From: Pseudosulfitobacter pseudonitzschiae
Lineage (GTDB): Bacteria; Pseudomonadota; Alphaproteobacteria; Rhodobacterales; Rhodobacteraceae
Direction of reading: 5' to 3'
DNA: 64,000 bases
Assembly: GCF_002222635.1 (NCBI RefSeq)
Contig: NZ_CP022417.1
Span: 124,001 to 188,000 of the forward strand
Of the stretch, positions 40,155 to 48,168 are shown piece by piece (position 1 is the stretch's first letter; every line of letters begins with the position of its first letter). Both the position numbers and the translations under genes were made by a program. The notes beneath the pieces were generated by a model. That model was not told where the DNA came from and searched no databases. It saw only the letters and a list, made by a program, of their open reading frames with translations.

Positions 40155-40279
40155 AGTGGTCTTTCTGGGTCACAGGTTAAGGCAGCGCACGATCTGTAGC
40201 TTATATATTAATATTTACAAAGCAGCATTTCGGGCGGCGCAGGTCGGGCAAGGCCCCTGCCCTAGCCGACCTGGCACAG

Positions 40280-40294
40280 GTTTCGCGGCGAAAC
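40280..40294. promoter_or_regulatory. parS: parS-like site 1
   Basis: GTTTCGCGGCGAAAC, a palindrome apart from its central base triplet, one base after the parB stop codon. Half-sites GTTTC/GAAAC equal those of the canonical chromosomal parS. The same 15-mer recurs at 41302 and 42052. Confidence 0.65.
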
Positions 40295-40295
40295 C

Positions 40296-41378
40296 TCAGG
40301 GTTTTTCCAAAAGATGCTGCAACTCGACCATCACGGAATCAATCAGATCAGACGTCACCGCCCGCCCCGACAACCGGATCAGATAGCCCCGCGTATCCTC
40401 ATCCCGCTGCAAGGTGATCCCGCTCGACAGGGTCAGCGTCCGCTTGTCCTGCCATCCGGACGACGGCAATTTCGCCGAAGGCCGCCCACCCCGCCGCGTG
40501 TCCTTGGGCTTGTCGTCAAATTCGTCCAGCGCCAGCTTCAGCAACTCTGCCTCGCTGGCCGCCGTCGCCGGATCTTCCGAGGCCAGAACCTCGCGCAGCC
40601 GCCCTTCGCCGCCCTGCCGCAACACCTGCGCCAGCCGCAGCCCTTCTTTTTCTTTCAGGGTCTCGGGAAATTTCAGCATGTCCCCCAGCTCTTCAAAGAT
40701 CAGAGCAAAGGACCGGATCTTGCTTCGCTTCGCTTTGGACGCCGAAGGGAACAACGCGTTCACCGCCTCTTCGACGTTGATGAACGACCCCTGTTGCACC
40801 GCGATCACAACGATCCGGCCCCGTTCAAAATGGCTGAGCGAGGCGCGAATTTCGTTCTCTTCGATCATCGCGGCAAAGGCCCCGCCCATCTGGTCGGGGT
40901 CACGCAGAATGGCGCGGATGGTGGCGTGTTTTTCCTGCTCGGTCAGATCATACAAATGCTGCACCGCCTTGAGACGGCGATAGCCGGACAGCACGCCGAA
41001 TCTGGGCCCGTCAGGCTGTGGATCTGGCAGGGCAAAAACCTCGATCGGCAGCCGCAATCCGTTCAGCGCAATGGAATCCTGAAGTTCGGTCATTTCTTCC
41101 GCGATCAGCACTGTGCGGTCGCGGATCATCGCGTCGGCTTGAATCTGGGCCAGCGGAATTTCGAGGATCACCAGCCCCTTTTCCCGCGCCGTTCGCATCG
41201 CCTGCGCGTCCGACATATCGCGGGCCTGTGCGCCTGCCACCATCGCATCGGTGCTGTCTGCCGCGACCTGCGCGATGGGCGCGCCCGATTTCCGGGGCGA
41301 GGTTTCGCGGCGAAACTCCTCTTCGATCCTACTCAGATCATCGGTGCTGGGTGCCTCCAGCCGTCTACGCTTTGCCAT
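40296..41378 (-). CDS. parB: plasmid partition protein ParB
   Basis: A 360-residue ParB-family protein, the DNA-binding CTPase that loads at parS and works with ParA. The N-domain reads LEIPLAQIQADAMIRDRT, LQDSIALNGLRLPIEVF and FGVLSGYRRLKAVQHL, the last being the CTP-binding/arginine region. A helix-turn-helix follows (EENEIRASLSHFERGRIVVIA and FINVEEAVNALFPSASKAKRSKIRSFALIF). The ATG at 41378 sits 9 bases after GGAGG and overlaps the end of parA by 14 bases, so they are coupled. A parS-like 15-mer lies within its first 30 codons. Confidence 0.88.
   Translation of the reverse strand: MAKRRRLEAPSTDDLSRIEEEFRRETSPRKSGAPIAQVAADSTDAMVAGAQARDMSDAQAMRTAREKGLVILEIPLAQIQADAMIRDRTVLIAEEMTELQDSIALNGLRLPIEVFALPDPQPDGPRFGVLSGYRRLKAVQHLYDLTEQEKHATIRAILRDPDQMGGAFAAMIEENEIRASLSHFERGRIVVIAVQQGSFINVEEAVNALFPSASKAKRSKIRSFALIFEELGDMLKFPETLKEKEGLRLAQVLRQGGEGRLREVLASEDPATAASEAELLKLALDEFDDKPKDTRRGGRPSAKLPSSGWQDKRTLTLSSGITLQRDEDTRGYLIRLSGRAVTSDLIDSVMVELQHLLEKP
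41302..41316. promoter_or_regulatory. parS: parS-like site 2, inside parB
   Basis: Second exact copy of GTTTCGCGGCGAAAC, within parB codons for EFRRET. Confidence 0.6.
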
Positions 41379-42756
41379 CTTCATGCCCCTCCATCTGCAT
41401 GTCGCGCCACCAGGTCCCAAGAAGGATTTCCTTGATCTCGGCCCAAGTCCGGTCAAACGTCTCGCGCCCCCGAACATAGGTGTCGCGATTAAACTCGCGG
41501 TAGTCTGCCTCGTAAATACCGTTCACCTGTTCGCCGGCCTGCCCGACCATCGCGGTCAGTTCCTGCCGATAGGTGGTCATAAAGTCGCCAAAATAGGCCT
41601 GAATCACATTCGCTAGATCGGTCTGCTGGGCCGCGTCAAAACGGGTGATCAGGGCGCGTACGGCGTCCCATTCGAATTTCATCTCGGGCATCCCGTCCTG
41701 ACGACGCAGGCGGTTTTCGCCCTCTTCGATGCTGGCGAAGGTGGAATAGAGCATGTCGAAAAACCGGCCCGTGGAATCAAATTCCAGAAACGACGCCCCC
41801 AGCGGCACCAGAAGGATGTCAGCGGCGGACAGGGCGTTGATGGTCAGATAACCAAGCGCAGGGGGCGTATCGAGCAGGATGATGTCGTAGTCCTTTAGTA
41901 TCTCGTCAGATTGCAGCGCGTTGGTCAGCGCATCCCACAGCGGCCATGACCGCAACTGCATCCGCCAGACCGGCACCTGAAATTCGGCCCAGTACAGGTT
42001 GAGCTGCGCGCCGATCAGATCAATGTTCGGCCAGTGGGTCGGCTGGATCAGGTTTCGCGGCGAAACCTCGAGGCTTTCGGTTAAGGTTTCGTCAAGCGGC
42101 AGTTCGGTGCTGCCTGCCGCACGACGGTTCGCATTCTCGGCCTGAACGTGGCGGGCATAGTCGCGGGCCAGCAGGGGAAAGGCGGTTTGCCATTCGTCTT
42201 CGACCTTGCCGCCCATAATCGAGGTCATGGAGCCCTGACTGTCGAGGTCGATCACCAGCACGCGATAGCCGTCAAGTGCGGCAGACATGGCCAGATGCGC
42301 GGCGGTGCTGGTTTTGCCTACGCCGCCCTTGAAATTGGCGACGGCGATGACCTTGGCGGGCTGGCCCTTGGGGCGGAAGGATTTGTATTGTTTGGATGCC
42401 GATCCTTCGCTGGCAAAGTGTTCGCGTAAGGCAAGCACTTCTTCAAGGGTGAACCACTTGGAATTGCCTTCGCCGGTGCCTTGGGGCAGATCCGCGTGGG
42501 CTTTTAACACACGGCGCAAATGGGCGGGCGCGATGTCGAGCAGATAGCGGCAGACTTCCCATGTCGAGAATTTGCGCAGCCGTTTGCGCCCGTCGGGGGA
42601 ATATCCGCGCTTGGCCAGATCGTCGCGACCCTTGGCTGCGAATGTCGCCGCTTTTGCGAATCGCAGCGTGTCGATAGGGTCGGAGAGACGCGATGCTGCC
42701 GCTGCCGGATCAATGTTGAAATAGGGGGGTGGGGTCGGCTTGCCTGAATTTGTCAT
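41365..42756 (-). CDS. parA: plasmid partition ATPase ParA
   Basis: A 463-residue ParA with an N-terminal DNA-binding region (about 1-120, including FSTWEVCRYLLDIAPAHLRRVL) as in P1-type ParA proteins. The ATPase begins VIAVANFKGGVGKTSTAAHLA (deviant Walker A near 142-150), then VLVIDLDSQGS and DIILLDTPPALGYLTINAL. The large form usually also represses its own promoter. The ATG at 42756 follows GAGGG and removes 15 non-homologous residues. Divergent from the replication initiator across the origin region, the standard arrangement of Roseobacter replicase-parAB modules. It carries one parS-like 15-mer at 42052. Confidence 0.9.
   Translation of the reverse strand: MTNSGKPTPPPYFNIDPAAAASRLSDPIDTLRFAKAATFAAKGRDDLAKRGYSPDGRKRLRKFSTWEVCRYLLDIAPAHLRRVLKAHADLPQGTGEGNSKWFTLEEVLALREHFASEGSASKQYKSFRPKGQPAKVIAVANFKGGVGKTSTAAHLAMSAALDGYRVLVIDLDSQGSMTSIMGGKVEDEWQTAFPLLARDYARHVQAENANRRAAGSTELPLDETLTESLEVSPRNLIQPTHWPNIDLIGAQLNLYWAEFQVPVWRMQLRSWPLWDALTNALQSDEILKDYDIILLDTPPALGYLTINALSAADILLVPLGASFLEFDSTGRFFDMLYSTFASIEEGENRLRRQDGMPEMKFEWDAVRALITRFDAAQQTDLANVIQAYFGDFMTTYRQELTAMVGQAGEQVNGIYEADYREFNRDTYVRGRETFDRTWAEIKEILLGTWWRDMQMEGHEDGKA
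42052..42066. promoter_or_regulatory. parS: parS-like site 3, inside parA
   Basis: Third exact copy of GTTTCGCGGCGAAAC, within parA codons for EVSPRNL. Copies 1 and 3 share additional flanking bases (CAG before, CTC after). Confidence 0.6.
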
Positions 42757-42887: not shown

Positions 42888-43100
42888 TAGAATCTTTTAG
42901 ATATTTAGAATCTTTACCCTAGAATAACTCTTTGGTTTCAGTCTGATGACGGGATTTGGGTGCCCGAATACGGGATCAAGCGGACCTGAAAACAGGTCCA
43001 AGGGTACCCGCATACGGGATTAAGGGGAGCGATTCGCGGGTTTTGGGGTATCCGACCACGGTATTGGCCTGTTTAGGGTCACATATGCGGGAATCGCCCG
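42888..43100. other. plasmid-type replication origin with iterons
   Basis: Three TAGAAT-CTTT-type repeats (42888, 42906, 42920) make an AT-rich unwinding-like region. It is followed by iterons: GGGTGCCCGAATACGGGAT at 42958, GGGTACCCGCATACGGGAT at 43002, and a degenerate GGGTATCCGACCACGGTAT at 43046, spaced 44 bases apart. A weaker GGGT-ATGCGGG copy is near 43076. An inverted repeat GGACCTG-aaaa-CAGGTCC lies at 42982-42999 between the first two. The Rep_3 initiator gene follows directly, as in iteron plasmids. Confidence 0.75.
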
Positions 43101-43143: not shown

Positions 43144-44436
43144 GTGGCGGACCAAGGGAACCCGTCGCAGCTAAGGTATCCAGAAAGGGCTTGTCGATGG
43201 GTACTGTTACGGGCGATAGTGTGGCAGGCGGCACAAGAAGGAATCAAACCTTTGGCCATACGAGCAGGTAGAACCGAAGACATCCCCCGTGACCAACTGA
43301 CCGGTGCATTGCGGCGCGGGGCGGTGAAAAAGCATGTGGCGGCAATTCATGTGTCGGGCAAGCTGACCCTTTTGCAGCGCAAGCTGTCGAATGTGTTGTT
43401 GCTGAACGCCTATGATACGCTGACAGACCAGCAGACCCATCTGATTGATGCGCGGACGCTGTGCATGATGATCGGGTACAATTCCAACGACATGGACACG
43501 CTAAAACAGTCTCTACGCGGGCTGGCAGAGACGGTGGCCGAATGGGATATGCTGGACGATAAGGGACAGCAGGAATGGGGCGTGTCCAGTTTGCTGAGCT
43601 ATGCCAAGCTGAAGGCGGGGGTTTGTGAATATGCCTATTCGCCCGCTTTGGCAGCCAAGCTGAACGATCCCAAGGTTTTTGCGCTGATCAATCTGAACAT
43701 CCAGCGGCGGTTCACCAGCGGTCATGCGCTGGCGCTGTACGAGAACTGTTACCGGTTCGTGCGCACCAAAAGCACCGGGTGGTGGTCGCTGGATCTGTTC
43801 CGGCGTCTGATGGGGGTGGACGACAGCCCCTATTATCAAAGCTACAAACATCTGAACGCCAAGATCATCAAACCCAGCGTGGCCGAGGTGAACAAAACAT
43901 CGAACATTGTGGTGACGCCCGAAGTGCGCAAGCGCGGGCGCGAGGTGGTCGAGATACGGTTTCACATTGCCGAGAATCCGCAGCTGGCGATCCTTGATCT
44001 GGACGACGGCGAAGGGCTGCGCAACACGCCGGTTTACGCCAAGTTGCGCGAACTGGGGGTCAGTGACCGTCTGGCGCGGCAATGGGTGACGGAACACGGC
44101 GCGGTGCATGTGAGCGAAAAGCTGGACTATGTGGCGGGGCAGGGGGGCGTGCAAAATCCGGTCAGCTATCTGACGGCGGCCTTGCGCGACGATTATAAGG
44201 CGACGGCTGCGGATGCGCCGCGCCCTGTCACCAGCGAACGCGGGGTCAAACTGGCGCGGGTGCGGGATCTGGCGGGCGCACGCACACCAACGCAGCGCGA
44301 CGCGGACAAGCGGTTGTTTCTGGCGCAGTTGGAGAGTGCCGCGGCACGCGATGATTTCGAGCGGCACGGCTGGATGTCTGCGCTGAACTATCACGCGATC
44401 GTGGCGTTCTGGGCAGAGATGGTTCCGGAAGATTAA
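43144..44436 (+). CDS. repB: Rep_3-type replication initiator (RepB)
   Basis: A protein of up to 430 residues with the winged-helix pair of Rep_3 plasmid initiators: AAIHVSGKLTLLQRKLSNVLL, LIDARTLCMMIGYNSNDMDTLKQSL, then YAYSPALAAKLNDPKVFALINLNIQRRFTSGHALALYENCYRF, with GWWSLDLFRRLMGVDDSPYYQSYKHLNAKIIKPSVAEV in the second domain. It binds iterons and melts the origin. The start is uncertain: GTG at 43144 lies within the iteron region; a GTG at 43219 is a plausible shorter start. It is divergent from parAB and convergent with the recombinase gene, with overlapping stops. Confidence 0.88.
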   Translation: MADQGNPSQLRYPERACRWVLLRAIVWQAAQEGIKPLAIRAGRTEDIPRDQLTGALRRGAVKKHVAAIHVSGKLTLLQRKLSNVLLLNAYDTLTDQQTHLIDARTLCMMIGYNSNDMDTLKQSLRGLAETVAEWDMLDDKGQQEWGVSSLLSYAKLKAGVCEYAYSPALAAKLNDPKVFALINLNIQRRFTSGHALALYENCYRFVRTKSTGWWSLDLFRRLMGVDDSPYYQSYKHLNAKIIKPSVAEVNKTSNIVVTPEVRKRGREVVEIRFHIAENPQLAILDLDDGEGLRNTPVYAKLRELGVSDRLARQWVTEHGAVHVSEKLDYVAGQGGVQNPVSYLTAALRDDYKATAADAPRPVTSERGVKLARVRDLAGARTPTQRDADKRLFLAQLESAAARDDFERHGWMSALNYHAIVAFWAEMVPED

Positions 44437-45470
44437 AGCCCCGCCGCTTTGGTCAGGTTCACGCGAAACCGGTCGCGGCGGCGTTGATACCGGCGGGTCA
44501 TTTCCGCCGAGGCATGGCCAAGCTGTTTTTGCACATAGCGTTCGTCGACCTCGGCCCCCGAGGCCAGACCGGCGCGCAGGCTGTGGCCCGAAAACAGCGC
44601 CAGCCGTTCGCGTTCGGGCAGGTCGCTGCGAATTCCGGCAGCCAGCACGGTTTGTTTGATCAGTCGGGCGACGTGTTTGTCACCAAGCCGGTCGGGGCGG
44701 GCGGTTTTGCCGTTGCGGGACGTGCGCACAAAGACGGGGCCAAAGTCGATCTTGGCGAAGTGCAGCCATTGTTCCAGCGCATGAACGGGGCAGGTCTGGT
44801 CGGACGAGCCGCGCCCGATTTCAACCTCGCGCCAGCCGGTTTTGGCGTTGAGGGTGAGCAGCGCGCCCTGATCAAGGATTTCGATCCAGCCGCCGGAATC
44901 GGGTGTGTCATCCTTGGCCACATCAAGGCTGACGATTTCAGAACGGCGCAGGCCGCCTGCGTAACCGATAAGCAGAATTGCACGGTCGCGCAGGCCGCGC
45001 AGGTCAAAGGGCAGGGTGGCGATCATTGCGATGATGTCGTCGCGCAGGATGGCGTGTTTTTGCACCGGCGGGCGGGCGTGTTTGCGTTTAATTCCGGCAA
45101 GCACCGAGGCGATGTGGCGGTCTGTTCGGTTCAGGGAGAGACCGCGTTGGGCGTAATTCCAGCCCAACCCCGACAGTCTGCGTTCGATGGTCGAGACGCT
45201 GAGGGCAGGGGTGTTGCCGGTGGGGGCGGCAAGGTCGGTGAGGTAGAGGCCGATGAGTTCGGGCGCGGGGGGCAGGGGGTCTGTTCCCTTGAGGCGGCAC
45301 CAGCGGGTGAAGTGGGCCCAATCCTTGGTATAGGCTTTGCGGGTATTTTCGGACAGCGCGGCCTGAGCATAGGTGCGGGCGGTGTCCACCAGCCGGTCAA
45401 GGGTGCCGGAGCCTGCGACGTGGTCGGGCAGGGCAAGCGATGTGTCGGTGTGGGGCGGGAGTTTGGCCAT
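44433..45470 (-). CDS. tyrosine recombinase/integrase
   Basis: A 345-residue phage-integrase family recombinase with an N-terminal SAM-like core-binding domain (ALSENTRKAYTKDWAHFTRWC) and the catalytic domain. Catalytic residues are visible: Arg in GYAGGLRRSEIVSL, HSLRAGL (HxxR) and the Tyr in LGHASAEMTRRYQRRR. Placement beside the replicase suggests a plasmid multimer-resolution or integration role. Its stop overlaps the repB stop by four bases. The ATG at 45470 is immediately next to the TGTC end of the Tni transposon, so its native 5' leader has probably been replaced. Confidence 0.88.
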   Translation of the reverse strand: MAKLPPHTDTSLALPDHVAGSGTLDRLVDTARTYAQAALSENTRKAYTKDWAHFTRWCRLKGTDPLPPAPELIGLYLTDLAAPTGNTPALSVSTIERRLSGLGWNYAQRGLSLNRTDRHIASVLAGIKRKHARPPVQKHAILRDDIIAMIATLPFDLRGLRDRAILLIGYAGGLRRSEIVSLDVAKDDTPDSGGWIEILDQGALLTLNAKTGWREVEIGRGSSDQTCPVHALEQWLHFAKIDFGPVFVRTSRNGKTARPDRLGDKHVARLIKQTVLAAGIRSDLPERERLALFSGHSLRAGLASGAEVDERYVQKQLGHASAEMTRRYQRRRDRFRVNLTKAAGL

Positions 45471-45567
45471 TGTCGTTCTTGTTCCATTAGTGGACTCTAA
45501 CGTGTTAATATCATGACATTCACGTTCTTGTTTCATTTCCGGATTATAGTTTCATATATCGGACATA
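45471..45567 (+). repeat. left-end transposase-binding repeats
   Basis: Three related copies of a roughly 24-base motif with core GTTyCATT-n3-GGA, starting near 45471, 45521 and 45544. They precede tniA and match inverted copies after tniQ. Confidence 0.6.
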
Positions 45568-45592
45568 TGACACCTTTTTGTTGATTTTGACC

Positions 45593-47239
45593 ATGGTGGA
45601 TCGCTCAGACTTCAACGCCGTCGACGATGCCGCTTGGGAACATGCAGTTGCGCGAGAGGCGGTGATCCGACGGCTGGCGAGCACGGCTACCCCGAACCGC
45701 ACCGAATTCCTCAAGGCCTGCCGAGACCTTGGTCTCAAGCGATCCCGTCTTTACGAATTGATCCGTGCTTATAAGGCGCGCCCGGTCACCAGCTCACTGC
45801 TGATGGCTTCCGCCGGATCGCCATCGGGCAGTCGACGGCTGCCGGACGAGATTGAGGCGGTGATTTCAGGGGCGATTGAGGACTTCTTCAAATCACGCCA
45901 GAAGCCCAGCATAAATGCCCTGCAAAAGGAGGTACGCAGGCGGTGCAGTCAGCGGGGTCTGCGCGCGCCGTGCTGGACGACGTTGCGGGATCGTGTGGCG
46001 GCACTGGATCCAGCAGAGCTCACCGCTGCGCGTGAGGGCGCTAAGGCCTCTCGCCAGCGCCACCGCCCGGTGCCGGGCAGCTATCAGGTTGAACGGGCCT
46101 ATGAGGTGGTTCAAATCGATCACACGCTGGTGGATGTCATCGTTGTGGACCGGGTTCATCGGGAGCCTTTGCAACGGCCCTGGCTGACGCTCGCCATCGA
46201 CGTCGCCAGCCGCATGGTGGCGGGGTTTTATCTGACGCTGGAGCCGCCGTCGGCCTTGTCGGTGGCACTGGCCATTCAGCACCTGGTGCAGCCCAAATTC
46301 GACTGGTTGGAGGCCCTGGATATCGACGCGGATTGGCCCGCGGAGGGTTTGCCGGAGACCATACACGTCGACAATGCCAAGGAATTCCGCTCGAAGGCTA
46401 TGAAGCGGGGTGCGGAAGAGCACGGAATTTCGCTGCAGTACCGGCCGATCGGTGCGCCGCACTACGGTGGTCACATCGAGCGTCTGATCGGCACTATGAT
46501 GGGGGCGGTCCACCTGCTGCCGGGATCGACCTTCAGCAGCATCAAGGACCGTGGGGATTACGATTCCGTGGCGAAATCCGCGATGACGCTCGACGAGCTG
46601 GAGCACTGGATGGCGCTGGAAATCACCCGTTATCATGCTGAACGGCACCGCTCGCTCGGGATTCCACCAGTTGCGGCCTGGAACGAGGCCTATGGGCGTC
46701 GCGGGGCACCTTTGCGCCTGCCTTACGACCTGGTGGGGTTCCGGATCGACTTCCTGCCGAGCACGGAACGCATGGTGCGCCGCGATGGCATCCATCTCTT
46801 CGGCCTGCGGTATTGGGACGATATCCTCAGCCTCTGGGCAGGCCGGCAGGACCGGCAAATGCGGGTGGCCTACGATCCACGTGACCTTTCCACGATCTTT
46901 GTCCGGACCCCTGATGGTCAGCGCTATCCTGTCCGGTTCGCCGATCTGCGCCATCCGTCGATCACCCTTGCGGAGCATCGCCGCGCGCAGGCGATCCTGC
47001 GCGAGCGCGGACGCGCGCTTGAGGACGAAGTGCTCATATTCGAGGTGATCGAGGAACAGCGGGCTCTGGTGGATGCGGCCACCAGCGAGACACGGGAAGC
47101 CAGGCGGTTTTCCGAACGACGGGATCGAGCGCTTGATGGGGTAAGGGCTTACGAGGCCGAGGATGCCGACCCGGAGCCGGAGGAAAACGAGAATGTGCTC
47201 AGGGACCACCCGGGTTTCTATGTTGAGGAATGGTCGTGA
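45593..47239 (+). CDS. tniA: TniA/TnsB-like DDE transposase
   Basis: A 548-residue Mu/TnsB-type transposase. The N-terminal DNA-binding part (LKACRDLGLKRSRLYELIRAY) is followed by an rve-type RNase H core with catalytic residues Asp in VVQIDHTLVD (about 176), Asp in TIHVDNAKEF (about 260) and Glu in YGGHIERLIGTM (about 296), then a Mu-transposase C-terminal beta-barrel domain (GLRYWDDILSLWAGR, VAYDPRDLSTIFVRTPDG). It cuts and joins the transposon ends. The ATG at 45593 is used; TTG codons slightly upstream are possible. It overlaps tniB. Confidence 0.92.
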   Translation: MVDRSDFNAVDDAAWEHAVAREAVIRRLASTATPNRTEFLKACRDLGLKRSRLYELIRAYKARPVTSSLLMASAGSPSGSRRLPDEIEAVISGAIEDFFKSRQKPSINALQKEVRRRCSQRGLRAPCWTTLRDRVAALDPAELTAAREGAKASRQRHRPVPGSYQVERAYEVVQIDHTLVDVIVVDRVHREPLQRPWLTLAIDVASRMVAGFYLTLEPPSALSVALAIQHLVQPKFDWLEALDIDADWPAEGLPETIHVDNAKEFRSKAMKRGAEEHGISLQYRPIGAPHYGGHIERLIGTMMGAVHLLPGSTFSSIKDRGDYDSVAKSAMTLDELEHWMALEITRYHAERHRSLGIPPVAAWNEAYGRRGAPLRLPYDLVGFRIDFLPSTERMVRRDGIHLFGLRYWDDILSLWAGRQDRQMRVAYDPRDLSTIFVRTPDGQRYPVRFADLRHPSITLAEHRRAQAILRERGRALEDEVLIFEVIEEQRALVDAATSETREARRFSERRDRALDGVRAYEAEDADPEPEENENVLRDHPGFYVEEWS

Positions 47240-48168
47240 CCGAGGACAACGCATTTGCACATCTCGATCCGGCGTACCGCCGGTTCGCGGCGCTTCCGGA
47301 CGATGAGCGCATCGCCTGGATCCGGGCCGACCGCTGGATTGGATTCGAGCAGTCCGGGGCAGCCCTGGCACGTCTGGAGAATCTGCTGACCTATCCGCCG
47401 CGTGACCGGATGCCGTGCTTGTTGATCTATGGCGAAACTGGCATGGGAAAGACCAAGATCGTGCGCAAGTTCGAACGTGATCACCCGCCGAAGTTCAGCC
47501 AGGTGACCGGTGTGGACCATCGCCCGGTGGTTGTCGCGCAGGTGCCATCAGAACCGATCGAGCGCGATCTCTACCGCGAACTCATGGCCAGCATGGGTGC
47601 GCCGGCCATGGTGGGCGGTACGCTCGCCCGCGAGAAGGATATCTGCCGGTCGCTGTTGCGGACCGTGGGCGCGAAGATGATCATTCTCGACGAGGTGAAC
47701 GGCATGCTGGCCGGTACCTTTCGGCAGCAGCGCATCTTTCTCAATGCGATCCGGTTTCTGGCCAATGATCTGCGAATTCCATTGGTTTGTGCCGGGACGG
47801 ATCTGGCCCGCCAGGCCTTGCTGACCGATGCACAACTGGCCGAGCGGTTCGAAGCGTTTCATCTCAAGCCCTGGCAAAACGATGCCGCCTTCGCCGGGCT
47901 CCTGAAAAGCTTCGAGCGCATCCTGCCCTTGCGCAGCGCCTCCGATCTGATCAGCGGGGAGGCCCGAGAGCGGATTCATAAGCAGACCTCCGGTGTAACG
48001 GCGCGCATCTTCCGCCTGATCGAGACGGCGACGGAAGATGCCGTCCAATCGGGCAAAGAACGCCTCGACGCGCATAGTTTCGGCGACAATCTGGTGCTGC
48101 CGCTGGTCTCGATGACCCAGACGGTTCGGCGGCGGGGAAAGCGCGTGCCGCAACGGGTCGGGGCATGA
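47236..48168 (+). CDS. tniB: TniB/TnsC-like AAA+ ATPase
   Basis: A 310-residue AAA+ protein with Walker A IYGETGMGKTKIVRKF (about 75-90), Walker B AKMIILDEVNGMLAG, sensor LVCAGTDLARQAL and a C-terminal helical lid. It bridges target DNA and the TniA transposase. The GTG at 47236 gives a GTGA overlap with the tniA stop and lies seven bases after GAGG; an ATG at 47230 is an alternative. It overlaps tniQ by four bases, so all three genes are translationally linked. Confidence 0.9.
   Translation: MTEDNAFAHLDPAYRRFAALPDDERIAWIRADRWIGFEQSGAALARLENLLTYPPRDRMPCLLIYGETGMGKTKIVRKFERDHPPKFSQVTGVDHRPVVVAQVPSEPIERDLYRELMASMGAPAMVGGTLAREKDICRSLLRTVGAKMIILDEVNGMLAGTFRQQRIFLNAIRFLANDLRIPLVCAGTDLARQALLTDAQLAERFEAFHLKPWQNDAAFAGLLKSFERILPLRSASDLISGEARERIHKQTSGVTARIFRLIETATEDAVQSGKERLDAHSFGDNLVLPLVSMTQTVRRRGKRVPQRVGA

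Follow-up and report, generated by a model that had tools for sequence, protein, structure and literature searches.

Does a replicon of the Rhodobacteraceae carry its centromere inside its own partition genes? The question arose from a 64,000-nt stretch of Pseudosulfitobacter pseudonitzschiae DNA (hereafter the window), part of a 292,917-base contig (C3), for which a preliminary description had reported an identical 15-mer at 40280, 41302, and 42052 with half-sites resembling those of canonical parS. Exact matching confirmed the three copies, and GTTTC is common to the arms of both kinds of site. On the sequence comparisons presented below, it is highly probable that these palindromes serve a RepB-I-type chromid or plasmid as its partition sites (parS) and are used by the local ParB.

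Organization of the locus and type of the replicon

The partition genes lie on the minus strand: parB (40296..41378) encodes a ParB-fold partition protein of 360 aa, and parA (41365..42756) encodes a Walker-type ATPase of 463 aa. ParA matched AAA_31 (3.7e-31), and its closest curated model was partition_RepA (6.5e-65; 219 bits, under the model cut-off of 348). The rep gene (43144..44436, plus strand), which is divergent from parA, encodes a Rep_3-family initiator (PF01051, PF21205); the three degenerate direct repeats upstream of it (42958..43028, plus strand; 22-bp spacing) are candidate iterons and may represent the origin. A tyrosine recombinase gene (44433-45536, minus strand) stands beside rep and is followed by two plus-strand ORFs (45578-48168) that, judged from their translations, look like a transposase with an integrase-type core and an ATPase partner. 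In S. alexandrii, the tyrosine recombinase gene adjoins parB, unlike that of the window.

The window shows the RepB-I gene order, a Rep_3-type initiator gene divergent from adjoining parAB. Among its closest plasmid matches was pDSM107133_b, typed as a RepB-I chromid in Table 1 of PMC9025767, whose ParB and that of the window share 87% identity. In both replicons rep is divergent from parAB, and the offsets of the sites from parB are nearly equal (-688, +62, and +1087 in pDSM107133_b; -688, +62, and +1084 in the window), with no difference in kind. We therefore take the window replicon as RepB-I type, a label that derives from ParB identity and gene order. Unlike the window, D. shibae pDSHI05 (RepB-I) is without both coding copies; 3' of its parB it carries two sites, one with a 2-bp spacer and the other with a 1-bp spacer and one mismatch. 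A 4,553-bp RepB-I module of D. shibae has been amplified as a complete replication module and cloned for chromid curing (PMC4373377). Its primers map the ends of this module exactly, one next to rep and the other immediately beyond the pair of sites 3' of parB.

Copies, shape, and rarity of the palindrome

The 15-mer GTTTCGCGGCGAAAC matched the window exactly at 40280-40294, 41302-41316, and 42052-42066. Copy 1 lies just 3' of parB and ends one base before the parB stop codon (40296-40298 on the plus strand), copy 2 lies at the 5' end of parB (codons 21-26, E-F-R-R-E-T), and copy 3 lies within parA (codons 231-235, V-S-P-R-N), so the earlier placement of two copies in coding sequence and one directly after parB was correct. 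In each copy, perfectly inverted 7-bp arms flank a single unpaired base. The outer two copies stretch to the 19-bp form AGGTTTCGC-N-GCGAAACCT, which at copy 1 (40278-40296) reaches the parB stop codon.

In the whole genome (5,121,602 bases, 8 contigs), GTTTCGCGGCGAAAC was found three times in the forward and zero times in the reverse orientation, and its reversed control pattern gave 0 matches in the same bases. From the base composition of the window, 1.6e-4 copies would be expected by chance per 64 kb and 0.013 per genome. All three exact copies lie within 1.8 kb of the par locus, to which the 15-mer is thus confined; three copies in 5.12 Mb dispose of the concern, voiced in the preliminary description, that it might be frequent genome-wide. 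The centre-free pattern GTTTCGCNGCGAAAC added one genomic copy, on contig C1 at 571124. This copy, a full-consensus GGTTTCGC-N-GCGAAACC, occupies the short interval separating two ABC-ATPase genes, which resemble phnK and phnL in their translations; a congener has a site with another centre base at the matching place, in a stretch that is 88% identical.

Palindromes of this shape could be hairpins, serving as terminators or structured RNA elements. Copy 1 would suit such a role in standing just 3' of parB, before a plus-strand T-run (40302-40306); this T-run is, however, oriented wrongly for parAB transcription, and the other two copies are mid-gene. Furthermore, the outer base and spacer sort by ParB class (see below), which a hairpin does not need. 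We consider hairpins a very improbable explanation of the three copies.

Conservation of the sites in related loci

Comparison with relatives was based on 172 ParB-matching loci, from which 16 shorter copies of re-fetched loci had already been removed. After exclusion of identical ParBs, of three that were short, and of those with internal stops, 164 distinct ParB loci were left: 116 with a window-class ParA (ParA-I), including the window's own, 42 of a sister class, and 6 without a ParA match. Sites with perfect arms or at most one mismatch were scored. At least one site, mostly GTTTCGC-N-GCGAAAC, was present in 112 of the 116 ParA-I loci, and at least two sites were present in 109; no recognizable site was found in 4. 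The sites occupied the parB 5' end in 97 loci (a count biased upward in the 79 loci that came from a scan with peptide patterns including IEEEFRRE, because this peptide overlaps the parB site), the region 3' of parB in 63, parA in 60, the parA-rep gap upstream of parA in 46, the rep side in 31, and other places in 6. The other 37 loci came from a plain protein search and were partly hand-picked for fetching; their pattern was weaker than that of the full set, with at least one site in 33 and none in 4 (parB, 27; 3' of parB, 22; upstream of parA, 20; parA, 13; rep side, 9; other, 4). The set of occupied positions differed from lineage to lineage. That the sites kept the same few places in relatives supports the earlier view that partition sites are interlocked with parA and parB.

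In a survey of 248 genomes of the family, the free-centre 15-mer was found in 49 genomes and its reversed control in 19. A RepB-I-like ParB (at least 190 bits) was encoded in 40 genomes, of which 32 had the free-centre 15-mer, versus 17 of the 208 others, although in three of the 32 (G056, G126, and G149) the copy was not at the RepB-I-like parB. Among the eight genomes with a RepB-I-like ParB and no 15-mer, six had the 2-bp-spacer form, one had a GTTTCGT arm variant, and one (G053) had nothing recognizable. A related ParB (E 1e-30) was encoded in 99 of the 248 genomes, at least 16 of which hold both RepB-I-like and RepA-I-like kinds.

The sites found between parA and rep in 46 loci raise the question of whether the palindrome is an operator rather than a centromere, that is, whether ParB (or ParA) binds it mainly to repress transcription of parAB or rep; parS-based regulation has been reported for repABC systems (PMC9040568). 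The parA-rep gap of the window, however, contains no palindrome even at up to 3 mismatches, and mid-parA, parB, and the region 3' of parB are poor places for repression. An operator as the main function is therefore unlikely. Both roles can coexist, and ParB bound at partition sites may also autoregulate the parAB operon.

Constraint on the coding copies

The two coding copies might have been kept only for the amino acids of ParA and ParB, with their common DNA a coincidence of codons. In keeping with this, VSPRN was constant at the perfect parA sites (48 of 48 scored cases), and EFRRET, at 51 of 97 sites, was more frequent than any other parB peptide. The reading frames tell against it. The perfect parA site was always read in a single frame, at codons 231-235, whereas the parB site of the window begins at the third base of a codon, so that the two genes read the palindrome in different frames. 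The frame also varied within parB: among the 116 loci, 79 had a 1-bp-spacer site in the window's frame (EFRRET in 51, then EFRSET, QFRSET, and others), 12 had a site one base out of frame (GFAAKP in 8, GFATKP in 3, and GFAAKQ in 1), 6 had a 2-bp-spacer site (GFARET in 5 and GFACET in 1), and 19 were without a scored site. In the 37 protein-search loci, the corresponding numbers were 9, 12, 6, and 10.

Codon usage pointed in the same direction. When five-codon windows were scanned after removal of duplicate rows, the parA site was the most codon-constrained of 457 (z 6.6), and the parB site (z 5.3) was tied with the gene start as the highest of 340. The rare Arg codon CGA was used at parA position 234 in 61 of 88 Arg rows, compared with 7.5% of Arg codons overall. 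In addition, many loci hold further copies outside both coding places. Since the parA and parB frames differ and parB itself switches frame, giving three kinds of peptide, the coding copies are constrained as DNA. The change of parB frame under a fixed palindrome is the strongest single argument that DNA rather than protein has been kept. With two genes in two frames, and parB alone in two, codons do not explain the conservation, a possibility that the preliminary description had allowed for and that we now regard as extremely remote.

Palindromes of the sister RepA-I class

In the two sister-class loci that were scanned, the initiator was of the RPA family (PF10134) and not Rep_3. By tblastn, an RPA initiator homologue was found in 37 of the 42 sister-class loci; a homologue of the window's Rep_3 initiator was found in 102 of the 164 ParB loci, and 101 of these 102 were ParA-I. 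RepA-I loci nevertheless have a related parAB and the same half-site, usually with an outer T for the outer G and a 2-bp spacer. Because the half-site and the related parAB are kept with an initiator from another family, the palindrome follows parAB and not the initiator. This bears on the proposal that the replication initiator, not ParB, binds the sites in an iteron-like or handcuffing manner. That proposal could draw on palindromes near rep, including the rep-side sites of 31 loci, but it does not fit the exchange of initiator families, and separate 22-bp repeats lie upstream of rep. Initiator binding is accordingly most improbable, and ParB is the better candidate.

Spacer length largely separated the two classes. 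Among sites with perfect arms, the 116 window-class loci had a spacer of 1 bp in 99, 2 bp in 8, mixed spacers in 2, and no such site in 7; the 42 sister-class loci had a spacer of 2 bp in 31, 1 bp in 2, mixed spacers in 2, and no such site in 7. The copies within one locus agreed in spacer in 99 of the 103 loci with at least two perfect sites, with four loci mixing spacers, against a maximum of 80 in shuffled data. On the ParB tree, spacer length requires at least 6 changes, and no ParB residue clearly marked it. Arm variants were also common to the copies of one replicon, such as GTTTCGT in all four sites of L196 and GTTCCGC in both scored sites of L143. One RepA-I locus (L147, on contig C38 of G244), which combines a 16-mer bearing outer T with several neighboring 15-mers, is possibly a composite replicon; outer G and C flank one of the 15-mers.

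Outer base, same-cell pairs, and ParB residues

The outer base was defined as the base before GTTTCGC and was scored at perfect sites outside the two coding positions, some of which may overlap neighboring genes. In the window class it was G in 181 of 194 half-sites with spacer 1 and in 28 of 34 with spacer 2, and four window-class outer T's stem from one locus (L022). In the sister class it was T in 60 of 82 half-sites with spacer 2 and in 12 of 18 with spacer 1.

RepA-I and RepB-I replicons can share a cell, as in D. shibae, whose 153-kb and 72-kb chromids have been typed as RepA-I and RepB-I, respectively (PMC4373377). We compared 16 genomes with a RepB-I-like and a RepA-I-like locus, a hand-picked part of the multi-hit genomes; four of these pairs had no scorable outer base on one side. 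In 11 of the 12 scored pairs, the commonest outer base was G versus T, the outer T of two genomes (G094 and G208) coming in each from a single site with two unlike sides. The twelfth pair (G056, taken as D. shibae) had one C/G-sided site versus T. Spacers were different in 8 of the 12 pairs, equal in 3 (G088, G128, and G170), and mixed in 1 (G056); spacer length as the sole mark of compatibility was rejected on account of these equal and mixed pairs.

The structural model of the window's ParB had a mean pLDDT of 82 and a pTM of 0.48. Its N domain had profile matches to Noc and ParB chains and matched ParB and Noc structures, including M. xanthus ParB (VIA Z 12.8, rmsd 1.4 over 77 residues); the Pfam ParB_N score was 19.9, under the cut-off of 26.3. 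Residues 180-285 weakly matched the DNA-binding domain of SopB (Z 7.7, rmsd 3.5 over 100 residues), a score short of a clear match, and the predicted helix 215-231 is likely the recognition helix. Residues 215, 222, and 232, which lie in or just after this helix, sort with the outer base: the outer base was G in 223 of 240 half-sites of K215/R222/G232 ParBs, T in 43 of 52 of R215/G222/D232 ParBs, and T in 16 of 16 of R215/R222/D232 ParBs. The last group weakened R222 alone as the determinant of the outer base. One locus of uncertain place in the tree (L139) combines a RepA-I initiator with the K/R/G residues and outer G on both sides of three perfect sites. In a phylogenetically independent test of 3 pairs, K215 went in the same direction in 1.9 on average, which was not significant. 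The relation between residues and outer base is thus a correlation, with too few independent switches for significance.

Taken jointly, these data allow a tentative reading, for which we would put the chances a little below even. RepB-I and RepA-I would be sister partition systems with the common half-site GTTTCGC, and the outer base pair (G for RepB-I and T for RepA-I) would distinguish them when they share a cell, spacer length (1 or 2 bp) being a further and less strict mark. The switch would reside in residues in or beside the ParB recognition helix (K215/R222/G232 versus R215/x/D232), selection on the site would be sufficiently strong to rewrite the amino acids of ParB where site and gene overlap, and the RepA-I ParB may have chromosome-wide targets.

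Proposed use of the palindromes by ParB

Proteins of the ParB family bind palindromic parS as dimers, form closed CTP clamps, spread, and engage ParA. At the window locus, the relatives keep the palindrome and its places even though the protein read through it changes, and the palindrome is therefore very probably a tag for the replicon's own ParB. Use by the local ParB is supported in three ways: the palindrome goes with parAB and not with the initiator, the copies of one replicon agree in spacer length, and the outer base usually differs between the two sister ParB classes in the same cells. A dimer of the local ParB would set one helix-turn-helix on each half-site GGTTTCGC across the 1-bp spacer, load there as a CTP clamp, spread from the palindrome, and couple the replicon to ParA for its segregation. 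With two sites written inside parA and parB, the centromere, partition genes, and origin would form one compact block.

Comparison with known parS sites

Like canonical parS (GTTTCACGTGAAAC), the palindrome lies near parAB and has the same first five arm bases (GTTTC). Unlike it, the palindrome has G for A at arm position 6, an extra 1-bp spacer, and mostly G as the outer base, which in canonical parS is T; at 15 bp, with GTTTCGC arms and one central base, it is neither the 14-bp GTTTCACGTGAAAC nor close to it. The same genome has other palindromes beside its other ParB genes, namely GTTTCACGTGAAAC at the chromosomal parB locus on C1, TTGCCCATGGGCAA on C2, TTGTCCGCGGACAA on C4, TTTACAGCTGTAAA on C5, and TTGACCGCGGTCAA on C6; none recurred within the loci of C7, C8, and one C4 ParB.

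The parS consensus of repABC replicons is the 16-bp GTTNNNNGCNNNNAAC, which in Rhodobacterales lies chiefly between repB and repC and 3' of repC; intragenic parS as such is already known, having been reported inside downstream ORFs and at the repB 5' end (PMC9040568). The window sites resemble repABC parS in being palindromic, near or within partition genes, present in several copies per replicon, and sometimes intragenic, and in their GTT...AAC ends. They differ in being one base shorter (15 bp) with an odd centre, and the window locus has a Rep_3 initiator instead of repC and copies inside both parA and parB. The window site is thus not a 16-bp GTTNNNNGCNNNNAAC beside repABC, and the 16-bp variants of its relatives fit that consensus only with a GC centre.

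Discrimination between ParB and Noc depends on one or two bases in each half-site and on a small number of residues in the HTH region (PMC7383237). Similarly, the related ParBs compared here differ by bases of the half-site and by HTH-region residues; unlike ParB and Noc, they are two plasmid ParB classes that differ in outer base and spacer, with residues that correlate with the difference. The motif, searched in six spellings, was printed in no paper that we found, Petersen et al. 2009, 2011, and 2013 being outside the coverage of the search; the Roseobacter plasmid papers, in the portions accessible to us, give palindromes for RepABC types and none for RepB-I or RepA-I. As far as we have seen, four features appear to be new: the motif of RepB-I replicons, its location in parA as well as in parB, the shift of reading frame beneath an unchanging palindrome, and the way in which outer base and spacer relate these sites to those of RepA-I.

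Scattered copies in other genomes

The RepA-I-type 18-mer TGTTTCGC-NN-GCGAAACA was dispersed over the largest contig of G056 (14 copies, L242-L255), with 1 more copy on a 153-kb contig. It was likewise dispersed over the largest contig in G170 and G096 (10 plus 2 copies in each) and over many contigs in G154 (18 copies) and G113 (10 copies). In the latter four genomes, all listed copies but one have the centre bases of the resident RepA-I locus. Given that the plasmid site is also scattered over the chromosome in several hosts, the RepA-I ParB may have targets there; in G056, the flanks (agattt...att) are also common to the copies, so a dispersed repeat or the operator of a regulator is possible.

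Other scattered forms were seen as well. In G126, whose RepB-I-like replicon (L190) has a 2-bp spacer and outer G, 23 copies of GTTTCGC-NN-GCGAAAC are spread over many contigs, none with outer T on both sides; in the three of these copies that were read (L222 and L232), five half-sites have outer G and one has C. G238 and G241 contain 9 and 12 scattered 16-mers, respectively, none with outer T on both sides, and no related ParB at E 1e-30. Reading of 20 stretches around unlinked 15-mers in other genomes, and of the C1 copy in the window's genome, showed no common gene, except between that genome and one congener.

Implications

RepB-I-like and RepA-I-like parAB are widespread in the family, and ParB specificity can be tested directly in vitro with their small set of natural site variants. 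If the proposed code is true, the shifting of the parB frame through a fixed 15-bp palindrome would be a clean natural case of a binding site overriding protein sequence. The compatibility of these replicons would also be readable from sequence, with a single base pair in each half-site keeping the sister centromeres distinct.
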